The position numbers were made by a program, and so were the translations under genes. From Candidatus Fermentithermobacillaceae bacterium (GTDB lineage Bacteria; Bacillota; Sulfobacillia; Fermentithermobacillales; Fermentithermobacillaceae): 33,139 nucleotides of DNA. Under the pieces are notes generated by a model that worked only from the letters and a program-made list of their open reading frames with translations, was not told where the DNA came from and ran no database searches. Shown here piece by piece: positions 9,964-18,321 of the stretch. The stretch lies in contig JAAZEL010000075.1 in assembly GCA_012512325.1 (NCBI GenBank), positions 1 through 33,139 on the forward strand, written 5' to 3'. How positions within the stretch are numbered: the stretch's first letter is position 1; every line of letters starts with the position of its first letter.

Positions 9964-12441
9964 CTATGGCAACAAAGCGTTCTGGTAGTCAAAGATCATC
10001 CTGGAGATTTCCCCTATCTTTTCAAAGCCCGCCTCCACGTCTTCGTGGCCTTTCGACATTATGGACAAGATGTACGGCCGCTGGGCATATATGACGCCCA
10101 CGTCGTTGGCTACGCCCATTATGTCCCCCTCCTTGTGGGCCACCTGTACTTCGGTGATGTACCTGTTTAGCCCGGTGTTCCAGATGGTGTTGGCCAGGTC
10201 GAACATGAGCTTTTCGCCCTCGGGGTTGGTCTTGGAGAATAGCAGTGCCGCCTCCATATACGTGGCGTTGTCCCTGGGGGTGGATATGTTCTGACCGCCG
10301 GGATACACCGTCTGGCCGCCGATTTCCTTCATGAAATTGATGAGGTTGTCTTTCCCCAATCTGCGTTCGAGCATTTTCCAGGCGACGTTGTCGCTGTGGG
10401 TTATTGACTTCTCAGCCAGTTCCCTTATGGTGAAGGTGTCTCCGTCCTTGGCGGTGTATTGGATGACACCTGCCCCGCCACGCCAGTCCCGGGCGGAGAC
10501 ATAGGTGAGGGTCTCGTTCCAGGAAAGCTCGCCTCTTGATACCAAAATGCTGGTATACAGCACCACCGGAACCTTTACGGTGCTCGCAGCGGGCACTTGC
10601 AGGTCGGGGTTCACTCCGAATGTCTTGCCTGACGTAAGGTCCTTGAAAAACGCTCCCCATTCTTGTCCGAGGCCGGCGAGCTTGTTGATGTATTCCTCCA
10701 CTTGCGCCTGGATTTGAGTGTAGTCAGGATCCCATGTGGATGACTGGGCCTCAGGAACACCTCCCGGCGGCCCCTCAGCCACGCCTGGCTCGCCATCTCC
10801 GGATCCCGTAACCAAACCTGCTATCGATTGGATCAACGCCATACATTTTTCCCGGAAAACCTTGAGTTCCGACCGCTGAACCGATATTTTCCATACCGTC
10901 CCTGTGCCGGGAACACCGCGGTAAACCTTGCCGTCGTTTTCGATGACCCCGAAGTCTACGACGTACATGGACCCATCGGGCCCGAATTTCACATCCACCG
11001 GGTGGTTGAAGCCTGAGAGATTCCGGCCGGCGGGTGCCAGGGACTTGTTGTATGCAAATACTTCATGCTGTCCGGTGCTTATGTCCAGGGTGTATACGCA
11101 ACAGCCCACAGGCTTCCGGGTGTTGTCGCCCTCGTCTGCAGAAATCCCAGCAGTGGAACCCCTGGCCGTCGAAATTCCATGCTCAAGCCCTTTGGTCCCC
11201 TCAAGGGCACATGCAATGTCTCCCTCTCCGAAGGCGGCCACATACATACGCCCTGAACCATCGAAGACCCTGGGGGCAAATCCGAATTTCATGAGCCCGG
11301 TCCCCGGCTCAAACACGGCTATTGGTTTTTCTGGCTTGGGATGCTCTTGAAGCAAGCCGGCAAGGGGAGCGCTCTTGGTTTGGGGCATGAACTTGGGATC
11401 TGTAAGGGGCTCTCCTGCGGCAAAGTCAGGCCAGCCGTACCAAGCGCCTTGCTCTATGCGATACACCGGGTCCGGGGCGTTGGCCACAGGCCGTGAGCCC
11501 CGTTCCTGGTAGCCCTGATCGACGGCAATGAGAGTGCCGTCAGGCGAAAAACCAAGCCCAAAGGGGTTCCTCAATCCCCATGCATACACTTCAGCATTAT
11601 CCCCGTCCTGGGCAACCCTGTAGACTACTCCTCCGGCCTTGGATTTCCCGGAAATGTGTTGACCGGGCGTTGATTGGGTTCCAAAGGGCAAGAATGCTCC
11701 GGTCACGGCATTGTCGAAAGGATTTGCGGTCCTGGGATCCCGCGAAGTGAAGTTCATTCCGGCAAGCACAATGTCTTCCCCGGGTACATCGTGCATTTCC
11801 GGGAAAGCAGATACCCATCCTCTCCGGAAGTTGTCTTCACCTACAACACCTGAGTTTGTGACGGTCCCATGCCCAACATAGAGCGAGCCGTCAGGCCCGA
11901 AAGCAAGCTCCCCGGTGAAGTGATCCCCGAAGGGCAAGCCTTGGAGCAGATCCGTGCGTCTTGCGTTCCCTTCGTGAACAGGGGAAGATGGCGTTTGGTG
12001 CTCTGCCGCCCGGGCACTCGCAGCACCGTTTATGACTTCTATCGCTGATACGCAGTCTCTGTGGGCAACGTAGAACATCCCGTCCCGTATCTTCACATCG
12101 GTGACCGGAGAGTTCAGCCCGTCAACCACCACTTCGTGTACGTCGGGGCCGACGCGCACGATCCTTCCGACCACGTCCCCTGCTTGGCCCGCTAAAGCAG
12201 CTATGCTTGGTATGCCTCCGTCTGCGGGTACCGCCGCCTCGGAAACGTACATTACCCCCGATTCATCCCAGGCCACCCCAGTGGGGAACGTCAAACCTGT
12301 TATATACCGTTCAATCCTATACCCGGGAGGCAGGATTACCTCTGTAATCCCTTCTGCTTCAGTCTTGGCCGTGGCGAAGTACAAGAGGCACACAGCAGCA
12401 AAGGTTACCCCCAAGACCGTCAGGAATGCTTTCCTACTCAT
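9964..12441 (-). CDS. Secreted fusion: sugar-dehydrogenase-type beta-propeller plus serine beta-lactamase/PBP-like domain
   Basis: The 825-residue protein has an N-terminal signal or anchor helix (about 5-23). Residues about 36-530 form a propeller like the glucose/sorbosone dehydrogenase (GSDH/YliI) family: GLTFPTGVAWDESGVMYVSE, ELAFGPDGSLYVGHGT, AWGLRNPFGLGFSPDGTL, GWPDF and HPVDVKFGPDGSMYVVDFG. After a Gly/Pro/Glu linker (about 553-572) comes a class A beta-lactamase-like domain with S620-T-V-K623, S683-D-N685 and KEG at 770-772 in place of KTG. I see no ExxLN motif about 40 residues after SDN, so the deacylating Glu of true beta-lactamases seems absent; transpeptidase/carboxypeptidase-like or binding function is more likely. 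ATG 12441 follows AAGGA. Domain assignments are by motif recognition; the biological role is unknown. Confidence 0.85.
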   Translation of the reverse strand: MSRKAFLTVLGVTFAAVCLLYFATAKTEAEGITEVILPPGYRIERYITGLTFPTGVAWDESGVMYVSEAAVPADGGIPSIAALAGQAGDVVGRIVRVGPDVHEVVVDGLNSPVTDVKIRDGMFYVAHRDCVSAIEVINGAASARAAEHQTPSSPVHEGNARRTDLLQGLPFGDHFTGELAFGPDGSLYVGHGTVTNSGVVGEDNFRRGWVSAFPEMHDVPGEDIVLAGMNFTSRDPRTANPFDNAVTGAFLPFGTQSTPGQHISGKSKAGGVVYRVAQDGDNAEVYAWGLRNPFGLGFSPDGTLIAVDQGYQERGSRPVANAPDPVYRIEQGAWYGWPDFAAGEPLTDPKFMPQTKSAPLAGLLQEHPKPEKPIAVFEPGTGLMKFGFAPRVFDGSGRMYVAAFGEGDIACALEGTKGLEHGISTARGSTAGISADEGDNTRKPVGCCVYTLDISTGQHEVFAYNKSLAPAGRNLSGFNHPVDVKFGPDGSMYVVDFGVIENDGKVYRGVPGTGTVWKISVQRSELKVFREKCMALIQSIAGLVTGSGDGEPGVAEGPPGGVPEAQSSTWDPDYTQIQAQVEEYINKLAGLGQEWGAFFKDLTSGKTFGVNPDLQVPAASTVKVPVVLYTSILVSRGELSWNETLTYVSARDWRGGAGVIQYTAKDGDTFTIRELAEKSITHSDNVAWKMLERRLGKDNLINFMKEIGGQTVYPGGQNISTPRDNATYMEAALLFSKTNPEGEKLMFDLANTIWNTGLNRYITEVQVAHKEGDIMGVANDVGVIYAQRPYILSIMSKGHEDVEAGFEKIGEISRMIFDYQNALLP

Positions 12442-12858: not shown

Positions 12859-12933
12859 TGGTGGGGACTACAGGGTTTGAACCTGTGGCCTTTCGGATGT
12901 GAACCGAACGCTCTACCGCTGAGCTAAGTCCCC
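12859..12933 (-). tRNA. tRNA-Val, anticodon CAC
   Basis: The minus strand gives a complete cloverleaf of 75 nt including an encoded CCA: acceptor GGGGACT with AGTCCCC, D arm GCTC/GAGC with loop AGCGGTA, anticodon stem TTCGG/CCGAA with loop TTCACAT (anticodon CAC), T arm ACAGG-TTCAAAC-CCTGT, discriminator A. CAC reads the GUG valine codon. Confidence 0.95.
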
Positions 12934-13073: not shown

Positions 13074-14378
13074 TCACAAGCCAAACGGTTCCAATGCCCT
13101 TTCGAGTATCCCTTTGGTATATGCAATAGCCATCCCGTAGTTCGTAATCGGAACCCCTGCAGACTCGGCAGCCTCTATCCTCGTCAGCATAGCCCGGCGG
13201 TTGAGCATGCATCCTCCGCAATGGATTATCACCTTGTACTCGCTGAGGTCTGCCGGATAATCTGTCCCCCTTTGCCAGGAGAAATCCAGAGGGCCTCCGA
13301 CCGTCTCCTGGAGCCACCTTGGAATCTTGACCGTACCGATATCGTCGGCAATGGGGTGATGGGTGCAGGCTTCTGCAATAAGCACTTTGTCATGGGGTTT
13401 TAGATCTGCCAGTGCCCTGGCGCCCCTGGCAAGTTGGGCAAGATCTCCTTTGTACCGGGCAAACAGGATGGAGAACGACGTTAGGGGGATGCTTGCCGGC
13501 AGTATCTCGTTCACTTCCTCAAACACCTGGGAATCAGTTATGACCAGGGCGGGAGGCCGTTTGGAGTTAGCCAGGGCATCTGGGAGATTTCCCGTCTTCA
13601 CCATGACGGCAGTGCATTCGTGGTCAAGCAGGTCCCTGATTACCTGGACCTGGGGTAGGATTAGCCTGCCCTTGGGAGCCTGCAAATCCAGGGGGACAAC
13701 GAGAAAAGCAGTGTCTCCGGGGCTAAGCAGGTCACCCACGATTGCAGGTTCTGCATCGCCGAAGGTGTGCTTGATGATCCGGCACAGACACGCGGTGAGT
13801 TCCCGGATCCCCTGGCCTGTGACGGCGCTCACTCCCAAGACCACCGGCGGAGACTCGGCTTTTGCGCTGCCGGCTGATCCTTTGCCCCCTGCCTTTGCAG
13901 GGTGTGCAGAACCCCCTGAGCCAGATTGGCTGAAAGCGGCTTTCACTTGGGACCGCACTCCATCCAAGGGAGATCTGCCGGCCCAAGTATCCTGCTTCGT
14001 AACCGCAGTCACCACCGGCATGGACCTGGAAATCACTTCCTTGATCAGAGTCTCCTCAGGCTCCCCAAAGCCTTCGAAAGGATCAATCACAAGCACAGCA
14101 ACATCCGTGCTCCCAAGTATCTTCAGAGCCCGTTCGGCCCTGGCCTGTCCCAGCCCTCCCACATCGTCTATGCCTGGCGTATCTATGAAAACCACGGGGC
14201 CTGCTCCCGGAAGCTCCATGGACTTGTACACAGGGTCGGTTGTGGTGCCGGGGGTGTCGGAAACCAAGGCCGTGTCCTGGCCTGTGATTGCGTTTATCAA
14301 ACTGGATTTCCCGGCATTCCGTCTCCCGAAGATGCCTATGTGGACCCGGTTGGCCCTGGGAGTCTTGCTTAAACTCAT
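13074..14378 (-). CDS. hydF: [FeFe]-hydrogenase H-cluster maturation GTPase HydF
   Basis: HydF has 434 residues from the ATG at 14378, which follows AGGAGGAGG by 6 nt; an upstream in-frame GTG at 14396 overlaps that site and is rejected. The GTPase domain shows the P-loop GRRNAGKS (18-25), the G2 region DTPGTTTDPV, the G3 IDTPG and the SAVTGQG motif. The C-terminal cluster-binding domain has the HydF signature CTH at 338-340 followed by HCGGC (386-390), the ligands of its [4Fe-4S] cluster. HydF is the scaffold on which HydE and HydG products assemble the 2Fe subcluster before transfer to HydA. An unusual low-complexity Gly/Ala/Ser/Lys stretch of about 25 residues sits inside the GTPase domain. 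It is the last gene of the maturation operon, 143 bp after hydG. Confidence 0.95.
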   Translation of the reverse strand: MSLSKTPRANRVHIGIFGRRNAGKSSLINAITGQDTALVSDTPGTTTDPVYKSMELPGAGPVVFIDTPGIDDVGGLGQARAERALKILGSTDVAVLVIDPFEGFGEPEETLIKEVISRSMPVVTAVTKQDTWAGRSPLDGVRSQVKAAFSQSGSGGSAHPAKAGGKGSAGSAKAESPPVVLGVSAVTGQGIRELTACLCRIIKHTFGDAEPAIVGDLLSPGDTAFLVVPLDLQAPKGRLILPQVQVIRDLLDHECTAVMVKTGNLPDALANSKRPPALVITDSQVFEEVNEILPASIPLTSFSILFARYKGDLAQLARGARALADLKPHDKVLIAEACTHHPIADDIGTVKIPRWLQETVGGPLDFSWQRGTDYPADLSEYKVIIHCGGCMLNRRAMLTRIEAAESAGVPITNYGMAIAYTKGILERALEPFGL

Positions 14379-14521
14379 TCTGATCCTCCTCCTCACTGTT
14401 CACAGCGCCGCCCATACCGTCGGGAAGCTTTTCTCTCAACGAGGCTTGTGCCAACCATAGAGGGTTCGCCCCCCGGTTCATTCGGTCGCCAGTTCTGCTG
14501 CCATTTCTTCCGCAAGCTCAA

Positions 14522-15928
14522 TCAGAAGTACAAGTCCCGTTCCCCTGCCCTGATCCTTTCGAGCCTGCGAACGCATTCGTTTCTGAGGGCTTCGTTGTCG
14601 ATCTCCATGAGCGCCTTCTCAATCGCCGGGAGTGCCCTTTCCATGGTGTCAGGGGATGCATAGTCGCACAGGTACTCCTGGAAGGTGAGGAGGGCGTTGG
14701 GTTGGCACATCTCGTGGATATGAGCGTTCTTGGCAAGGTCCATGAAACTCTCACCCGTCCTGCCCGTACGGTAGCAGGCAGTGCAGAAGCTGGGGATGTA
14801 CCCATCCGGAAGCAGGTCGCGGATGATCTCATCCAGGCTTCTGTGGTCGCCCACTTCAAATTGGGGGGTATCCGAATGGTCTTCTCTTGCTTTCCCCTCG
14901 CTGTACTCGCCCACACCCACCATTGACCCTGCGCTTATCTGCGAAATGCCGAGAGCGATTACTTCTTCGCGGGACACCGGTTCCTCCCTGGTTGACAGAA
15001 TCATGCCTGTATACGGTACGGCCAATCGCAGGGATGCTACGATTCGCTTGAACTCATCATCGCCCACAAGGTGGGGGAAGTTGTCAAGGGAGATGCCACA
15101 CGCCGCGCGCAACCGCGGGAAGGAGATGGTGTGAGGCCCTACCCCATACGTCTTATCCAGGTATTGAGCATGCATCAATAAGGCCACGGTTTCGAACCGC
15201 CAGTCGCAAAGCCCGTACAGGACCCCAAGCCCCACATCGTCAATGCCTGCGGCAAATGCCCTGTCCATGGCGGTTGCATGCCAGTCGTAATCCGCCTTGG
15301 GTCCTGAGTGCATTCTCTTGTACGTGTCTCGGTGATAGGTTTCCTGGAAGAGCACGTAAGTGCCAATACCTGCGTCTTTGAGCATCTTGTACTCATCGAC
15401 GGTGGTCGCCGCTATGTTGACGTTAATCCGCCTTATACAGGCATTGCCTGAAGTGGTGGCATATATCTGCTTCATGGCATCCACGATGTAATCGATGGGG
15501 CAGTGCACCGGGTCTTCCCCTGCCTCAAGGGCAATGCGCTTGTGCCCCATGTCAAGGATGACCTTGACTTCTTGGCTGATTTCCTCCATAGTCAGGCGAC
15601 GCCTGGGAAAGCGGTTGCCGGCTCTATACCCGCAATACCGGCAGTTGTTCACACAGTAGTTGCACACGTAAAGAGGGGCAAACAAAACCAGCCGCTTGCC
15701 GTATATGTGCTCTTTGATCTTCCGCGCGGCGTTATAGATCTCATGCTCAAGCTCCGGGTCGTCAACCCATAGCAAAGCTGCGAGTTCCTCAAGATCCAGC
15801 CCTTTGAGCTCAAGGGACTTGGACACCACATCCCTTACGGCAGAAGGGCTGTACCGTTTGCCCGCCTCCAGTACCTCCACGATTCTTGCCTCATCTATGA
15901 AAGTTGCTACTTGACGCTCGGCCTTCAC
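14522..15928 (-). CDS. hydG: [FeFe]-hydrogenase maturase HydG (radical SAM tyrosine lyase)
   Basis: HydG has 468 residues from the GTG at 15928, 8 nt after GAGGAG; a GTG three codons upstream overlaps the binding site. The radical SAM cluster motif CX3CX2C is at C92, C96 and C99 (VNNCRYCGYR context). The HydG-specific C-terminal CX2CX22C motif is at C382, C385 and C408 (FCTACYRTGRTG, then HEMCQPNA), which carries the auxiliary cluster with the dangler iron. HydG splits tyrosine to p-cresol plus CO and cyanide, delivered as an Fe(CO)2CN synthon for the H-cluster. The C-terminal extension distinguishes it from ThiH. It lies 38 bp downstream of hydE in the same operon. Confidence 0.96.
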   Translation of the reverse strand: MKAERQVATFIDEARIVEVLEAGKRYSPSAVRDVVSKSLELKGLDLEELAALLWVDDPELEHEIYNAARKIKEHIYGKRLVLFAPLYVCNYCVNNCRYCGYRAGNRFPRRRLTMEEISQEVKVILDMGHKRIALEAGEDPVHCPIDYIVDAMKQIYATTSGNACIRRINVNIAATTVDEYKMLKDAGIGTYVLFQETYHRDTYKRMHSGPKADYDWHATAMDRAFAAGIDDVGLGVLYGLCDWRFETVALLMHAQYLDKTYGVGPHTISFPRLRAACGISLDNFPHLVGDDEFKRIVASLRLAVPYTGMILSTREEPVSREEVIALGISQISAGSMVGVGEYSEGKAREDHSDTPQFEVGDHRSLDEIIRDLLPDGYIPSFCTACYRTGRTGESFMDLAKNAHIHEMCQPNALLTFQEYLCDYASPDTMERALPAIEKALMEIDNEALRNECVRRLERIRAGERDLYF

Positions 15929-15966
15929 AACGGACACTCCTCTCTTTCTTATCTAACCTTCCATGG

Positions 15967-17244
15967 CTAAACCTCAGACAAGTCCCATTGGGTCACGACC
16001 GGTGCCGGGCACCTTCCGCCTGCAAACCGGAGCTTCGGGCTGTCTCCCCTGCCGGGATCGATGTACATGCCCAACACCTCAACCATAGCCTTTGCCCTTC
16101 TTACGGCACCTGCCACCTCTCCCCCGTCCGACCCGGCTTTGCCCGGGTATATCTCATACGACTCCCTGAAGGTTTTTGGGGTTACGTCAGGCATGATCAC
16201 GTTGGCGCCGCAGGTAAGGGCCAGGGTCCTCGGATCGCTCCAAACGCCGGCGCAACTTCCATCGGCCGGATCTTGGTGCCTCGATCCGGCGGTGCTTCCA
16301 ATCCTCTCACGGACATAAGGGGCGGCCCAATGAACCCAGGCCCGCGAATCCTTCCCTATTACCCCCAAGGCAGTTGTCGCAGGGATATGGGCTAAAGGCA
16401 CCAGCAGGCGCGACAAGGCCACAGCCCGCAGAGTATCCCTGATTAGCCCCAAAGGATCAGCTTGGCCCCCGGGGACATGCGTTCCCAAGGGCGTATCGGG
16501 ATGGGGGATGAACGGCCCTATGCTGACCATCTCCGGGTCGATCTCGTGGAGGAGGGACAAGTCACGGATGACTATGTCCCTCGTCTGTCCCGGCAGCCCG
16601 AGGATGATCCCTGTTCCCACCTGGTATCCCAGCTTCCTCAGGCACATGAGGCACTCCAGCCGCTCGTCCAAGGTAGTGGTGGGTTTGAGCTCCCCGAACA
16701 AGTCAGGGTCAGAAGTTTCAAACTTGAGCAGGTACCTGTCGGCACCTGCCTTTCTCCACAGTTCGTAATCTTCATAGGGCCTCTGACCCACGCTGAGGGT
16801 CACGGCAGGCCCCATCCGCTTTATGGATTCCACTGCATATGCAATGGCGTCCGCGGGGTAGCCGGGGTCTTCACCTGACTGGAGCACAAACGTGCCGAAT
16901 CTGTGTACTTCCAGTGCCCGTACCGCCGCCTCCACGATCTGCTCCGGGGACATCCTGTACCTGCGCAGTTTGGCGTTACTTCTCCTGAGGCCGCAGAAAA
17001 GGCAATCCTGACGGCAGTAGTTGGAGAACTCGATGATGCCCCTCACTTGGACCGAGCGCCCTAGATTGTCTAGCCTGGCATTGTGGGCGGTGTGGAACAG
17101 GCTGAACTCCTCTTCCGGAGTTTGGGGCGACAAGACCGCATCTATTTCATCTGGTTCGGCGGAACGCCCCCGGGCGATCCTTCCCAGCGCTTCTTGATAG
17201 TCTCCCTGTATGCCTGTGCTCTTGCTCTCTTTGGCGGTTGTCAT
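15967..17244 (-). CDS. hydE: [FeFe]-hydrogenase maturase HydE (radical SAM)
   Basis: HydE has 425 residues from the ATG at 17244, which is 8 nt after GGAG. A TTG at 17298 and an ATG at 17292 are in frame but poorly served by ribosome binding sites, and the extra 18 residues are not family-like. The radical SAM motif CX3CX2C is C77, C81 and C84 (FSNYCRQDCLFCGLR). Further family features are FVLQSGEDPGYPADAIAYAV, the GERPYEDYE-like GQRPYEDYELWRKAGADRYL, GTGIILGLPGQT and GPFIPHPDTPLG. HydE acts on the HydG-derived iron synthon to help build the azadithiolate-bridged diiron unit. It follows the ACT-type regulator with about 59 bp between them. Confidence 0.94.
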   Translation of the reverse strand: MTTAKESKSTGIQGDYQEALGRIARGRSAEPDEIDAVLSPQTPEEEFSLFHTAHNARLDNLGRSVQVRGIIEFSNYCRQDCLFCGLRRSNAKLRRYRMSPEQIVEAAVRALEVHRFGTFVLQSGEDPGYPADAIAYAVESIKRMGPAVTLSVGQRPYEDYELWRKAGADRYLLKFETSDPDLFGELKPTTTLDERLECLMCLRKLGYQVGTGIILGLPGQTRDIVIRDLSLLHEIDPEMVSIGPFIPHPDTPLGTHVPGGQADPLGLIRDTLRAVALSRLLVPLAHIPATTALGVIGKDSRAWVHWAAPYVRERIGSTAGSRHQDPADGSCAGVWSDPRTLALTCGANVIMPDVTPKTFRESYEIYPGKAGSDGGEVAGAVRRAKAMVEVLGMYIDPGRGDSPKLRFAGGRCPAPVVTQWDLSEV

Positions 17245-17303
17245 CGGCCTCACTCCGCTGTTTTGACTGTCTCCTTGTGACTCTAAACCCATGCTCAAAC
17301 CCG

Positions 17304-17603
17304 CTACACCGTGATGGCCGTTCGCACTTTCACTCCGGGGATGCTTCCAAGTTTTCCGGTCATAGCCCCAAGGGTGTCCGTATCCCCGTCTACGATCAAA
17401 GCAATAACCGAAATACCCCTTTCCCTGTAAGGGATACCCATCCGCCCGATGATAATGTGGGCGTAGTCGCTGAGAACCCGGTTCACCCGGGGCGCTGTTT
17501 TCAACCGCTGGGTAACCGCAATCCCCACTACCGCAATTCTCCTGGCGTCGGCTTCTGCTTGGCGCCCTTCAGCTCCGGCAACTGACTCCTTATCCCTGCT
17601 CAT
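17304..17603 (-). CDS. TM1266-like iron-only hydrogenase system regulator (ACT-fold)
   Basis: The ATG at 17603 follows AAGGAGGG by 5 nt and gives 99 residues; the longer open frame begins inside the upstream hairpin and is rejected. The last 75 residues fit the TM1266 family: RIAVVGIAVTQR, then VNRVLSDYAHIIIGRMGIPYRERGI, then SVIALIVDGDTDTLGAMTGKLGSIPGVKV. This is a small ACT/NikR-C-like domain annotated as a putative regulator of iron-only hydrogenase systems and repeatedly found next to hydE/F/G. It has no DNA-binding domain, so a direct repressor role is not supported by sequence. It is the first gene of the maturation operon, immediately behind an attenuator-like hairpin. About 25 polar residues precede the domain. 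Confidence 0.88.
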   Translation of the reverse strand: MSRDKESVAGAEGRQAEADARRIAVVGIAVTQRLKTAPRVNRVLSDYAHIIIGRMGIPYRERGISVIALIVDGDTDTLGAMTGKLGSIPGVKVRTAITV

Positions 17604-17620
17604 CTTCACCCTCCTTAAGC

Positions 17621-17660
17621 CAAAACGGTCAAAGCCCGTCGCGAGGACGGGCTTTGACCG
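17621..17660 (-). terminator. Terminator/attenuator hairpin directly before the hyd operon ribosome binding site
   Basis: A perfect 15-bp stem: CGGTCAAAGCCCGTC (17646-17660 on the complement) pairs with GACGGGCTTTGACCG (17626-17640), with a 5-nt loop, followed on the minus strand by TTTTGG. The stem ends only about 10 nt before the AAGGAGGG of the first hyd gene, so it could stop transcription into the operon or shield translation. Confidence 0.75.
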
Positions 17661-17832
17661 GAGGTTCAATCAGTATCCGTTATCAGCAAAACACCTACGA
17701 ATATCTCCTAGAACGAAGCTTACCCAAGCTCCGTTAGGCTTCCGCATCAACATCCCTCAAGTTCAGGGACTTGGCCCCTCCCCGCAGGAACACACCCTGT
17801 TCAATTTTCAATGTGTGAACGCTATCACAATC
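17661..17832 (-). ncRNA. Candidate structured leader or small RNA ahead of the hyd operon
   Basis: A near-consensus promoter lies just upstream and a 15-bp hairpin follows, so the minus strand should give an RNA of about 170 nt plus the hairpin. Conspicuous helices: GUUCA/UGAAC and the overlapping alternative CACAC/GUGUG near the 5' end; CAAGU/ACUUG, alternative to UCCCU/AGGGA, in the middle; and an 8-bp hairpin CGGAGCUU-GGGU-AAGCUUCG. The block GGGGCCAAGUCCCUGAACUU resembles part of 6S RNA by eye, but the long apical arm is not obvious. It could equally be a riboswitch-type leader. The class is not identified. Confidence 0.5.
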
Positions 17833-17838
17833 TCTTAC

Positions 17839-17867
17839 ATTATACCCGAACCGGCTTCACCTGCCAA
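17839..17867 (-). promoter_or_regulatory. Strong sigma-A promoter driving the hyd leader RNA
   Basis: On the minus strand TTGGCA (17862-17867) and a perfect TATAAT (17839-17844) are separated by exactly 17 bp. The expected start is near 17832. It lies within the gap between gerW and the hyd operon and points towards the operon. Confidence 0.85.
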
Positions 17868-17883: not shown

Positions 17884-18321
17884 TCATCCCTCGGATGTTT
17901 GAGCCTCTTCCTTACCTTCCTCTTGGGCGACCTCACCTTTGTCCGCGTCGCCGTCTTCATCCCTGGTCTTGAGCTTCTTCGGCATTAGCAGGTTGACCTT
18001 GGATATCATCTCCGGGAGCCTTTCGATGAGCTTGTCGGCAATACCCCGGCCTTCAAAAGTGAAGACCTGCACGTCTCCGTCGTCTTTCACTGCGACTATG
18101 GCCAAAGGCCTGAGTACAGCGCCTCCGCCTGAACCTGCGCCTGCATTCAAGTCTTTTTCGCCCTTGTTCTGGCCGCTGCCCGAGCCAAAACCGAAGGACA
18201 CCGACTGAATGGGGATCAAGGTGACTTTGCCTGCAACCATAGGATTTCCAAACACGGTCCTGGTTGAGATAAACTTCTCAAGTTGATCGCCCAGCGCCTC
18301 AATTGAGTTTACATGTTCCAT
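17884..18321 (-). CDS. gerW: GerW/YtfJ family sporulation protein
   Basis: This 145-residue protein has the YtfJ pattern: an N-terminal helix (SIEALGDQLEKFISTRTVFG), then GNPMVAGKVTLIPIQSVSFGFGSG, a Gly-rich turn region, and GSGGGAVLRPLAIVAVKDDGDVQVFTF. The acidic C-terminal 30 residues are low complexity. In Bacillus subtilis GerW (YtfJ) is a sporulation protein needed for normal germination, and the family is a marker of endospore-forming Firmicutes. The start ATG 18321 follows GGGGAGG. It is preceded on the same strand by the DUF2953 gene with a 54-bp gap, the conserved ytfI-ytfJ order. Confidence 0.92.
   Translation of the reverse strand: MEHVNSIEALGDQLEKFISTRTVFGNPMVAGKVTLIPIQSVSFGFGSGSGQNKGEKDLNAGAGSGGGAVLRPLAIVAVKDDGDVQVFTFEGRGIADKLIERLPEMISKVNLLMPKKLKTRDEDGDADKGEVAQEEGKEEAQTSEG

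Follow-up and report, generated by a model that had tools for sequence, protein, structure and literature searches.

A leader of about 210 nt before a maturase operon

How the supply of H-cluster maturases is matched to hydrogenase demand beyond control by Rex is poorly understood. At the locus analyzed here, a long RNA leader precedes a maturase operon. In the window (the whole stretch of 33,139 nt that was analyzed), the operon lies on the minus strand and comprises a TM1266-family gene (17304–17603; 99 residues, ATG at 17603, profile match to PF21699/TIGR03959), hydE (15967–17298; TIGR03956), hydG (14522–15937; TIGR03955) and hydF (13074–14396; TIGR03918). The annotation of TM1266, for which there is one solved relative (2NZC), goes no further than ‘putative regulator’. 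A GerW/YtfJ-like gene upstream (17884–18321, minus strand; weak TIGR02874 match below cut-off) marks the boundary and lies outside the unit. Elsewhere, the window carries an RNase P RNA (RF00010; 3767–4172, minus strand), a tRNA (12862–12933) and an 825-residue frame (9964–12441, minus strand) whose N-terminal part resembles ScyD/ScyE and PQQ dehydrogenases and is followed by a domain similar to class A beta-lactamases (residues about 596–819), with matches below curated cut-offs.

Transcription is expected to start near 17832, behind a sigma-70-type promoter, TTGGCA-17-TATAAT (17839–17867, minus strand). The initial annotation had called this promoter near-perfect, and indeed it matches the consensus at 11 of 12 positions, both hexamers are kept in genus relatives, and it is the best of three promoter-like sites in 1.2 kb, where 0.5 would be expected. 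The leader, also on the minus strand, is some 210 nt long, 172 nt of which precede an intrinsic terminator (17622–17660) consisting of 15 perfect pairs around a loop of five (17660–17626) and TTTT (17625–17622). The resulting U-tract is short, with only four U, while the arm and loop are nearly invariant in relatives. The Shine-Dalgarno sequence of TM1266, AAGGAGGG (17609–17616), starts 5 nt after the TTTT, again as first described, and this gap leaves no space for a further promoter. The predicted fold of the leader beats 200 of 200 shuffles (z = −3.3) and, by alignment and consensus fold, includes a hairpin region kept in the genus, AACGGAGCUU-GGGU-AAGCUUCGUU (17712–17735).

These features are those of a transcription attenuator that acts in cis on the TM1266-hydE-hydG-hydF operon, and we consider it probable that the leader is one. 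The earlier proposal of a riboswitch or protein-controlled attenuator gains support from the conservation of the leader, its place before TM1266, a terminator/antiterminator pair and the occurrence of a similar element elsewhere, each of which is set out below.

A conserved core hairpin complementary to the terminator

The proposed sensor element is a conserved core hairpin, CCUGCGGGGAGGGGCCAAGUCCCUGAACUUGAGGG (17754–17788, minus strand), recognized by alignment, by pattern scan and by a match to the layout descriptor described below. Its strands pair as an outer CCU/AGG, a middle GGG/CUU and an inner GGGG/UCCC stem, of which the middle one is weak in the window, with two G-U pairs. In computed folds the hairpin forms when the terminator is forced, and it forms spontaneously in the leader of one family relative (G008).

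The 5' strand of the core, GCGGGGAGGGGC (17785–17774), is complementary to GCCCGUCCUCGC (17652–17641), that is, to the 5' arm and loop of the terminator. The initial annotation had seen no obvious antiterminator; this was an oversight, since the two segments are predicted to pair. The duplex in the window is computed at −24.9 kcal/mol, and nowhere else in the leader does the arm find a better partner (P = 0.005 against shuffles). Across nine leaders from about eight species, the values range from −18.6 to −29.5 kcal/mol (P between 0 and 0.12 against shuffled leaders), the core being the arm's best partner in seven; in the other two (G007 and G010) a partner better by 0.4 kcal/mol exists, whose duplex ends near the same core. 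Complementarity for an alternative pairing that would exclude the terminator was thus computed in all nine family leaders, and pairing of the loop with the core would account for the conservation of this loop. The terminated and antiterminated states lie 0–9 kcal/mol apart in computed folds: G003 and G004 adopt the antiterminated form when folded without constraints, in G001 and G008 this form lies some 1 kcal/mol above the minimum, and for the window the prediction favors the terminated form by 8.5 kcal/mol. Leader-peptide attenuation was rejected, because the 27-codon frame in the window is, by eye, not kept in relatives.

Conservation within the family

The window genome (G000) belongs to a class that we take to be called Limnochordia, of which 154 genomes were searched; four of these (G001–G004) are of the same genus. 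Comparison upstream of hyd operons in relatives, which had been proposed as a check, revealed a leader that is conserved in the family (G001–G004, G007, G010, G008 and loci L010–L015 and L017) and a similar element in Clostridia. In every relative that has the leader, it lies directly upstream of TM1266. An extra reading frame parts the GerW-like gene from the leader at L015 and L017, so the leader stays with TM1266 and not with GerW. Conservation is highest in CCUGCGGGGAGGG...CUGAAC...AGGG and in the arm and loop of the terminator (AAGCCCGUCCUCGCGACGGGCUU). The core pattern occurs in 8 of the 154 class genomes, all of the window's family, with one copy each. In G002 the leader has some 250 nt more, and about 130 nt separate its terminator from the gene; at this locus (L014, 2342–2670) the stretch from core to terminator is much longer, at about 260 nt.

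A length near 200 nt, an own promoter and a terminator are also what 6S RNA has, and one block, GGGCCAAGUCCCUGAAC, looks by eye like the template strand in the bubble of E. coli 6S RNA, a likeness that is a lead only. The Rfam search suggested with this resemblance gave no RF00013 match in the leader or in the window genome, whereas a canonical copy over cut-off is found elsewhere in the genomes of 12 of 13 family relatives; that the leader is a 6S RNA is therefore extremely improbable. The lack of a 6S RNA in the window's own genome, as against 12 of 13 family relatives, is probably an assembly gap. The weak Rfam matches that did appear (P9, CRISPR-DR28, miRNA models and, for the most part, rnk_pseudo) fall on the terminator hairpin and were set aside.

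A similar element in Clostridia and other Limnochordia

Most Clostridia TM1266 leaders have terminators, and before these lies a shared motif, CCUGAUUGCAAGGA...UCUGAGCAAAAGGGG. Its consensus fold is one nested hairpin, YCU-GA-middle stem-AA-GGA...UCY-GA-middle stem-AA-GGG; in general terms, the element is an imperfect, almost twofold symmetric hairpin (YCU-GA-stem-RA-RGG repeated) that usually has a terminator after it and, across Clostridia and Limnochordia, sits before TM1266, hydE, hydF or hydG. In 16 sequences of the Clostridia form, 98.1% of cells pair. A model built from these 16 (R1) found two further loci (L044 and L053), and with L175 and L190 the alignment comprises 20 sequences, in which 98% of cells are paired and two-sided changes occur in six of ten pairs (11 such cells). 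None of 500 shuffles was as good, and the covariation lies above all slid controls. These four additions come from model searches, which favor structure; their middle stems are nevertheless changed on both sides, with positions fixed by conserved flanks. Variants of the middle stem include UUGC/GCAA, UUAC/GUAA, UUAU/AUAA, CUGU/GCAG and AUGU/ACAU.

The two CCUGA-AGG units near a terminator recall the target of ANTAR proteins, which consists of two 3-bp hairpins with hexaloops carrying A1 and G4 (PMC3369931). A dual-hairpin antitermination site of this type is nonetheless very unlikely: the units pair together in one nested hairpin backed by covariation, and A1 and G4 are not kept in the hexaloops. 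Once the consensus fold was in hand, the idea of two independent kissing hairpins, or of an ANTAR site, gave way to a single nested hairpin.

Copies in Clostridia lie upstream of TM1266-hydE/hydG, TM1266-hydG (L170) or hydE alone (L171), and C. bowmanii has two, before TM1266-hydF (L167) and hydG (L172). A scan of 245 Clostridia genomes with R1 recovered the seed genome plus a single strong new match (L175, 32 bits, before hydG). The other twelve matches (up to 28.6 bits) have no hyd context, most lying inside reading frames, and were discarded, as was L173, a chance match within a gene. A class-wide pattern scan of the 154 Limnochordia genomes listed nine places, three of which (L200, L203 and L204) are one tandem repeat and were removed; the six others, in six genomes and including two new places (L201 and L202), all lie before TM1266. 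hydE follows in the fetched DNA at five of these six, the sixth (L199) being on a short stretch. At three loci, a frame resembling the catalytic subunit of [FeFe] hydrogenase by eye lies just upstream of the leader (L131, 1–1249; L201, 1–1386; L174, 3–1415, turned so that TM1266 is on the plus strand).

In both genome-wide scans, chance and repeat matches aside, the element is thus found only at TM1266/hyd operons. This distribution bears on whether the leader could be a free-standing, trans-acting sRNA whose terminator leaks enough to supply the hyd operon. An own promoter, a strong terminator and the terminator placed about 130 nt before the gene in G002 would suit such an RNA, but its restriction to these operons, the complementarity of the terminator arm and loop to the core, and the presence in C. 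bowmanii of one copy at each of two hyd operons would not; we regard this reading as unlikely.

The antiterminator logic recurs, less uniformly, outside the window's family. Clostridia terminator arms can usually pair with the 3' strand of the hairpin, with individually weak values (P = 0.01–0.62); among Limnochordia, it is strong at L133, L136 and L201 and weak at L134, L137 and L202. No such complementarity was found at L131, L135 or L175.

A shared-layout descriptor (YCU-GA-stem-RA-RGG, two similar strands), written after both groups had been seen, matches the window, G001, G003, G004, G008 and many Clostridia leaders. It also matches seven of the ten TM1266 leaders from other Limnochordia, including the previously unrecognized L130 and L131, against a background of about 1% of shuffles and of 2.6% (Limnochordia) or 0.8% (others) of random windows. 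In its strict form it misses the leaders of G002, G007 and G010, and R1, which models the Clostridia form, has no match in the window. The window and Clostridia versions are alike in layout, context and logic. Because R1 misses the window, common descent of the two rests on layout and context, and given these misses of both descriptor and model it is, judging from sequence, likely though unproven.

Association with TM1266 and an ECF transporter gene

The initial annotation had the leader governing hydE, hydG and hydF. This holds for the window genome, but the element tracks TM1266: in G008, where hydG has no match, the leader precedes TM1266 together with a gene for an ECF S component (PF12822). 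The element precedes TM1266 and an ECF transporter gene in three genomes altogether (G008, G187 and G059), the copy in G187 (L190) being the second in the genome that also carries L175. The gene that follows TM1266-ECF there (L190, 2259–3233) resembles epoxyqueuosine reductase (QueG) by eye. A second TM1266-ECF locus exists in the window genome (L145, G000:C63, TM1266 cut by the contig end) and in G001 (L144, G001:C31, TM1266 truncated); the leader element was not seen at either.

TM1266 was found in each of the four tested genomes that bear the motif and was not found in any of seven genomes that have hyd genes but gave no motif at their hyd loci, although four of these seven are of one genus and not all of the loci were scanned with R1. 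This co-occurrence is suggestive of a link to TM1266. Of two refinements of the attenuator, the one that we rank first, still with less than even confidence, treats the core as a site bound by a protein, most probably TM1266, which would either stabilize the hairpin and promote termination (autoregulation) or release it on a signal. The element accompanying TM1266 even where hydG was not found (G008) and preceding TM1266-ECF in three genomes fits this reading, and the near-twofold symmetry of the hairpin would suit an oligomeric protein. On the other hand, no RNA binding is known for TM1266, the co-occurrence would fit a pathway riboswitch equally well, and several TM1266 genes are motif-free (L140–L142, L188 and L189). 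In two Thermoanaerobacterium genomes, TM1266 lies, by eye, between a DivIVA-like gene and ileS, with no motif there.

The attenuator could alternatively be refined as a metabolite or metal riboswitch whose ligand is tied to H-cluster assembly and the ECF cargo, a possibility that we entertain more tentatively. Internal loops of conserved purine-rich sequence (GA/RA) that separate the covarying stems, a terminator as output and the co-regulation of maturases with a transporter gene are all typical of riboswitch regulons. No Rfam class matches: searches against the riboswitch and leader families of Rfam 15 gave no match over the gathering score in the window or its relatives. However, the core is small (about 36 nt), the sequence of the middle stem is free to vary, nothing in the sequence points to a ligand, and a strict tie to one protein family would be unusual.

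A Rex-like operator and a model for control

A palindrome resembling an operator, TTGTGA-N6-TCACAC (17813–17830, minus strand), lies over the expected start site and is putatively of Rex type. TGTGA-N6-TCACA is kept in the genus and in G007 and G010 while the N6 varies, and is absent over the G008 start site; only three such sites occur in the window genome, which has one rex gene. Compared with the Rex consensus TTGTGAA-N4-TTCACAA, the outer TTGTGA/TCACA is kept and the inner A or T not always. One of the other two sites in the window genome (L104, G000:C6 near 8890) is a perfect consensus box, before an NADH_4Fe-4S/Pyr_redox_2 gene that is probably hydrogenase-associated; it has matching sites in G001, G003 and G004, with the gene context read in G000 and G001 only.

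In C. bescii, Rex is described as binding a site 181 bp before an operon of a ‘CopG regulator’ and hydG, for which the rex mutant shows a shift of just −0.2 log2 (PMC6391272). We would guess that this ‘CopG regulator’ is TM1266 and that its operon carries the leader element; the element may then help to explain why the operon is not raised by rex deletion despite Rex binding (PMC6391272). The operator and rex gene of the window, together with the C. bescii site, could also be taken to mean that a Rex-controlled promoter is followed by a fixed, unregulated terminator and nothing more. We think this improbable, as it leaves the covarying core, its recurrence and its complementarity to the terminator unexplained.

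At the level of sequence and comparison, the promoter, the terminator, the complementarity of core and terminator, the conservation of the leader, the recurrence of a similar element at operons of this kind and the covariation of the Clostridia form are established, and the following attenuation model is what they suggest. Transcription would start near 17832 from a promoter that is probably blocked by a Rex-type repressor, and the nascent RNA would fold the conserved core hairpin (17788–17754). As long as this hairpin is held, the terminator (17660–17622) could form and stop transcription before TM1266; when it opens, its 5' strand would pair with the 5' arm and loop of the terminator, and polymerase would read on. 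Because hairpin and antiterminator compete, a stabilizer of the hairpin is predicted to turn the operon off. A metabolite or protein that recognizes the core may set the balance, with TM1266 as the leading protein candidate.

No entry for the element was found in Rfam or in the literature searched, which covered papers outside subscription and a minority of preprints, and we would class it as a new family of the familiar attenuator-leader kind. On balance we lean toward a new regulatory RNA class of Clostridia and Limnochordia that controls H-cluster maturation and a linked ECF gene, sensing an H-cluster-related signal either directly or via an RNA-binding TM1266. The shared leader element offers a testable target, and it ties an uncharacterized ECF transporter gene to hydrogenase assembly.

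Comparison with known systems

Riboswitch and T-box attenuators likewise combine a sensor fold, an antiterminator and an intrinsic terminator before a biosynthetic operon, and share one element across the operons of a pathway. The window leader differs in having no Rfam match and in its core, a single short, near-symmetric hairpin whose own strand antiterminates. ANTAR dual-hairpin systems (EutV, NasR and AmiR; PMC3369931) also place two similar units upstream of a terminator, whereas here the units pair with each other and the A1/G4 hexaloops are not kept. With 6S RNA (RF00013) the leader shares size, promoter and terminator, but it does not match the model, and true 6S RNAs lie elsewhere in relatives. 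The C. bescii Rex regulon of [FeFe]-hydrogenase genes resembles the window in its Rex site upstream of a hydG operon, at a distance that would leave room for a leader of similar length; unlike our reading of the window, the passages concerned mention no attenuator, and the window operator differs from the Rex consensus given there at the inner bases (PMC6391272).
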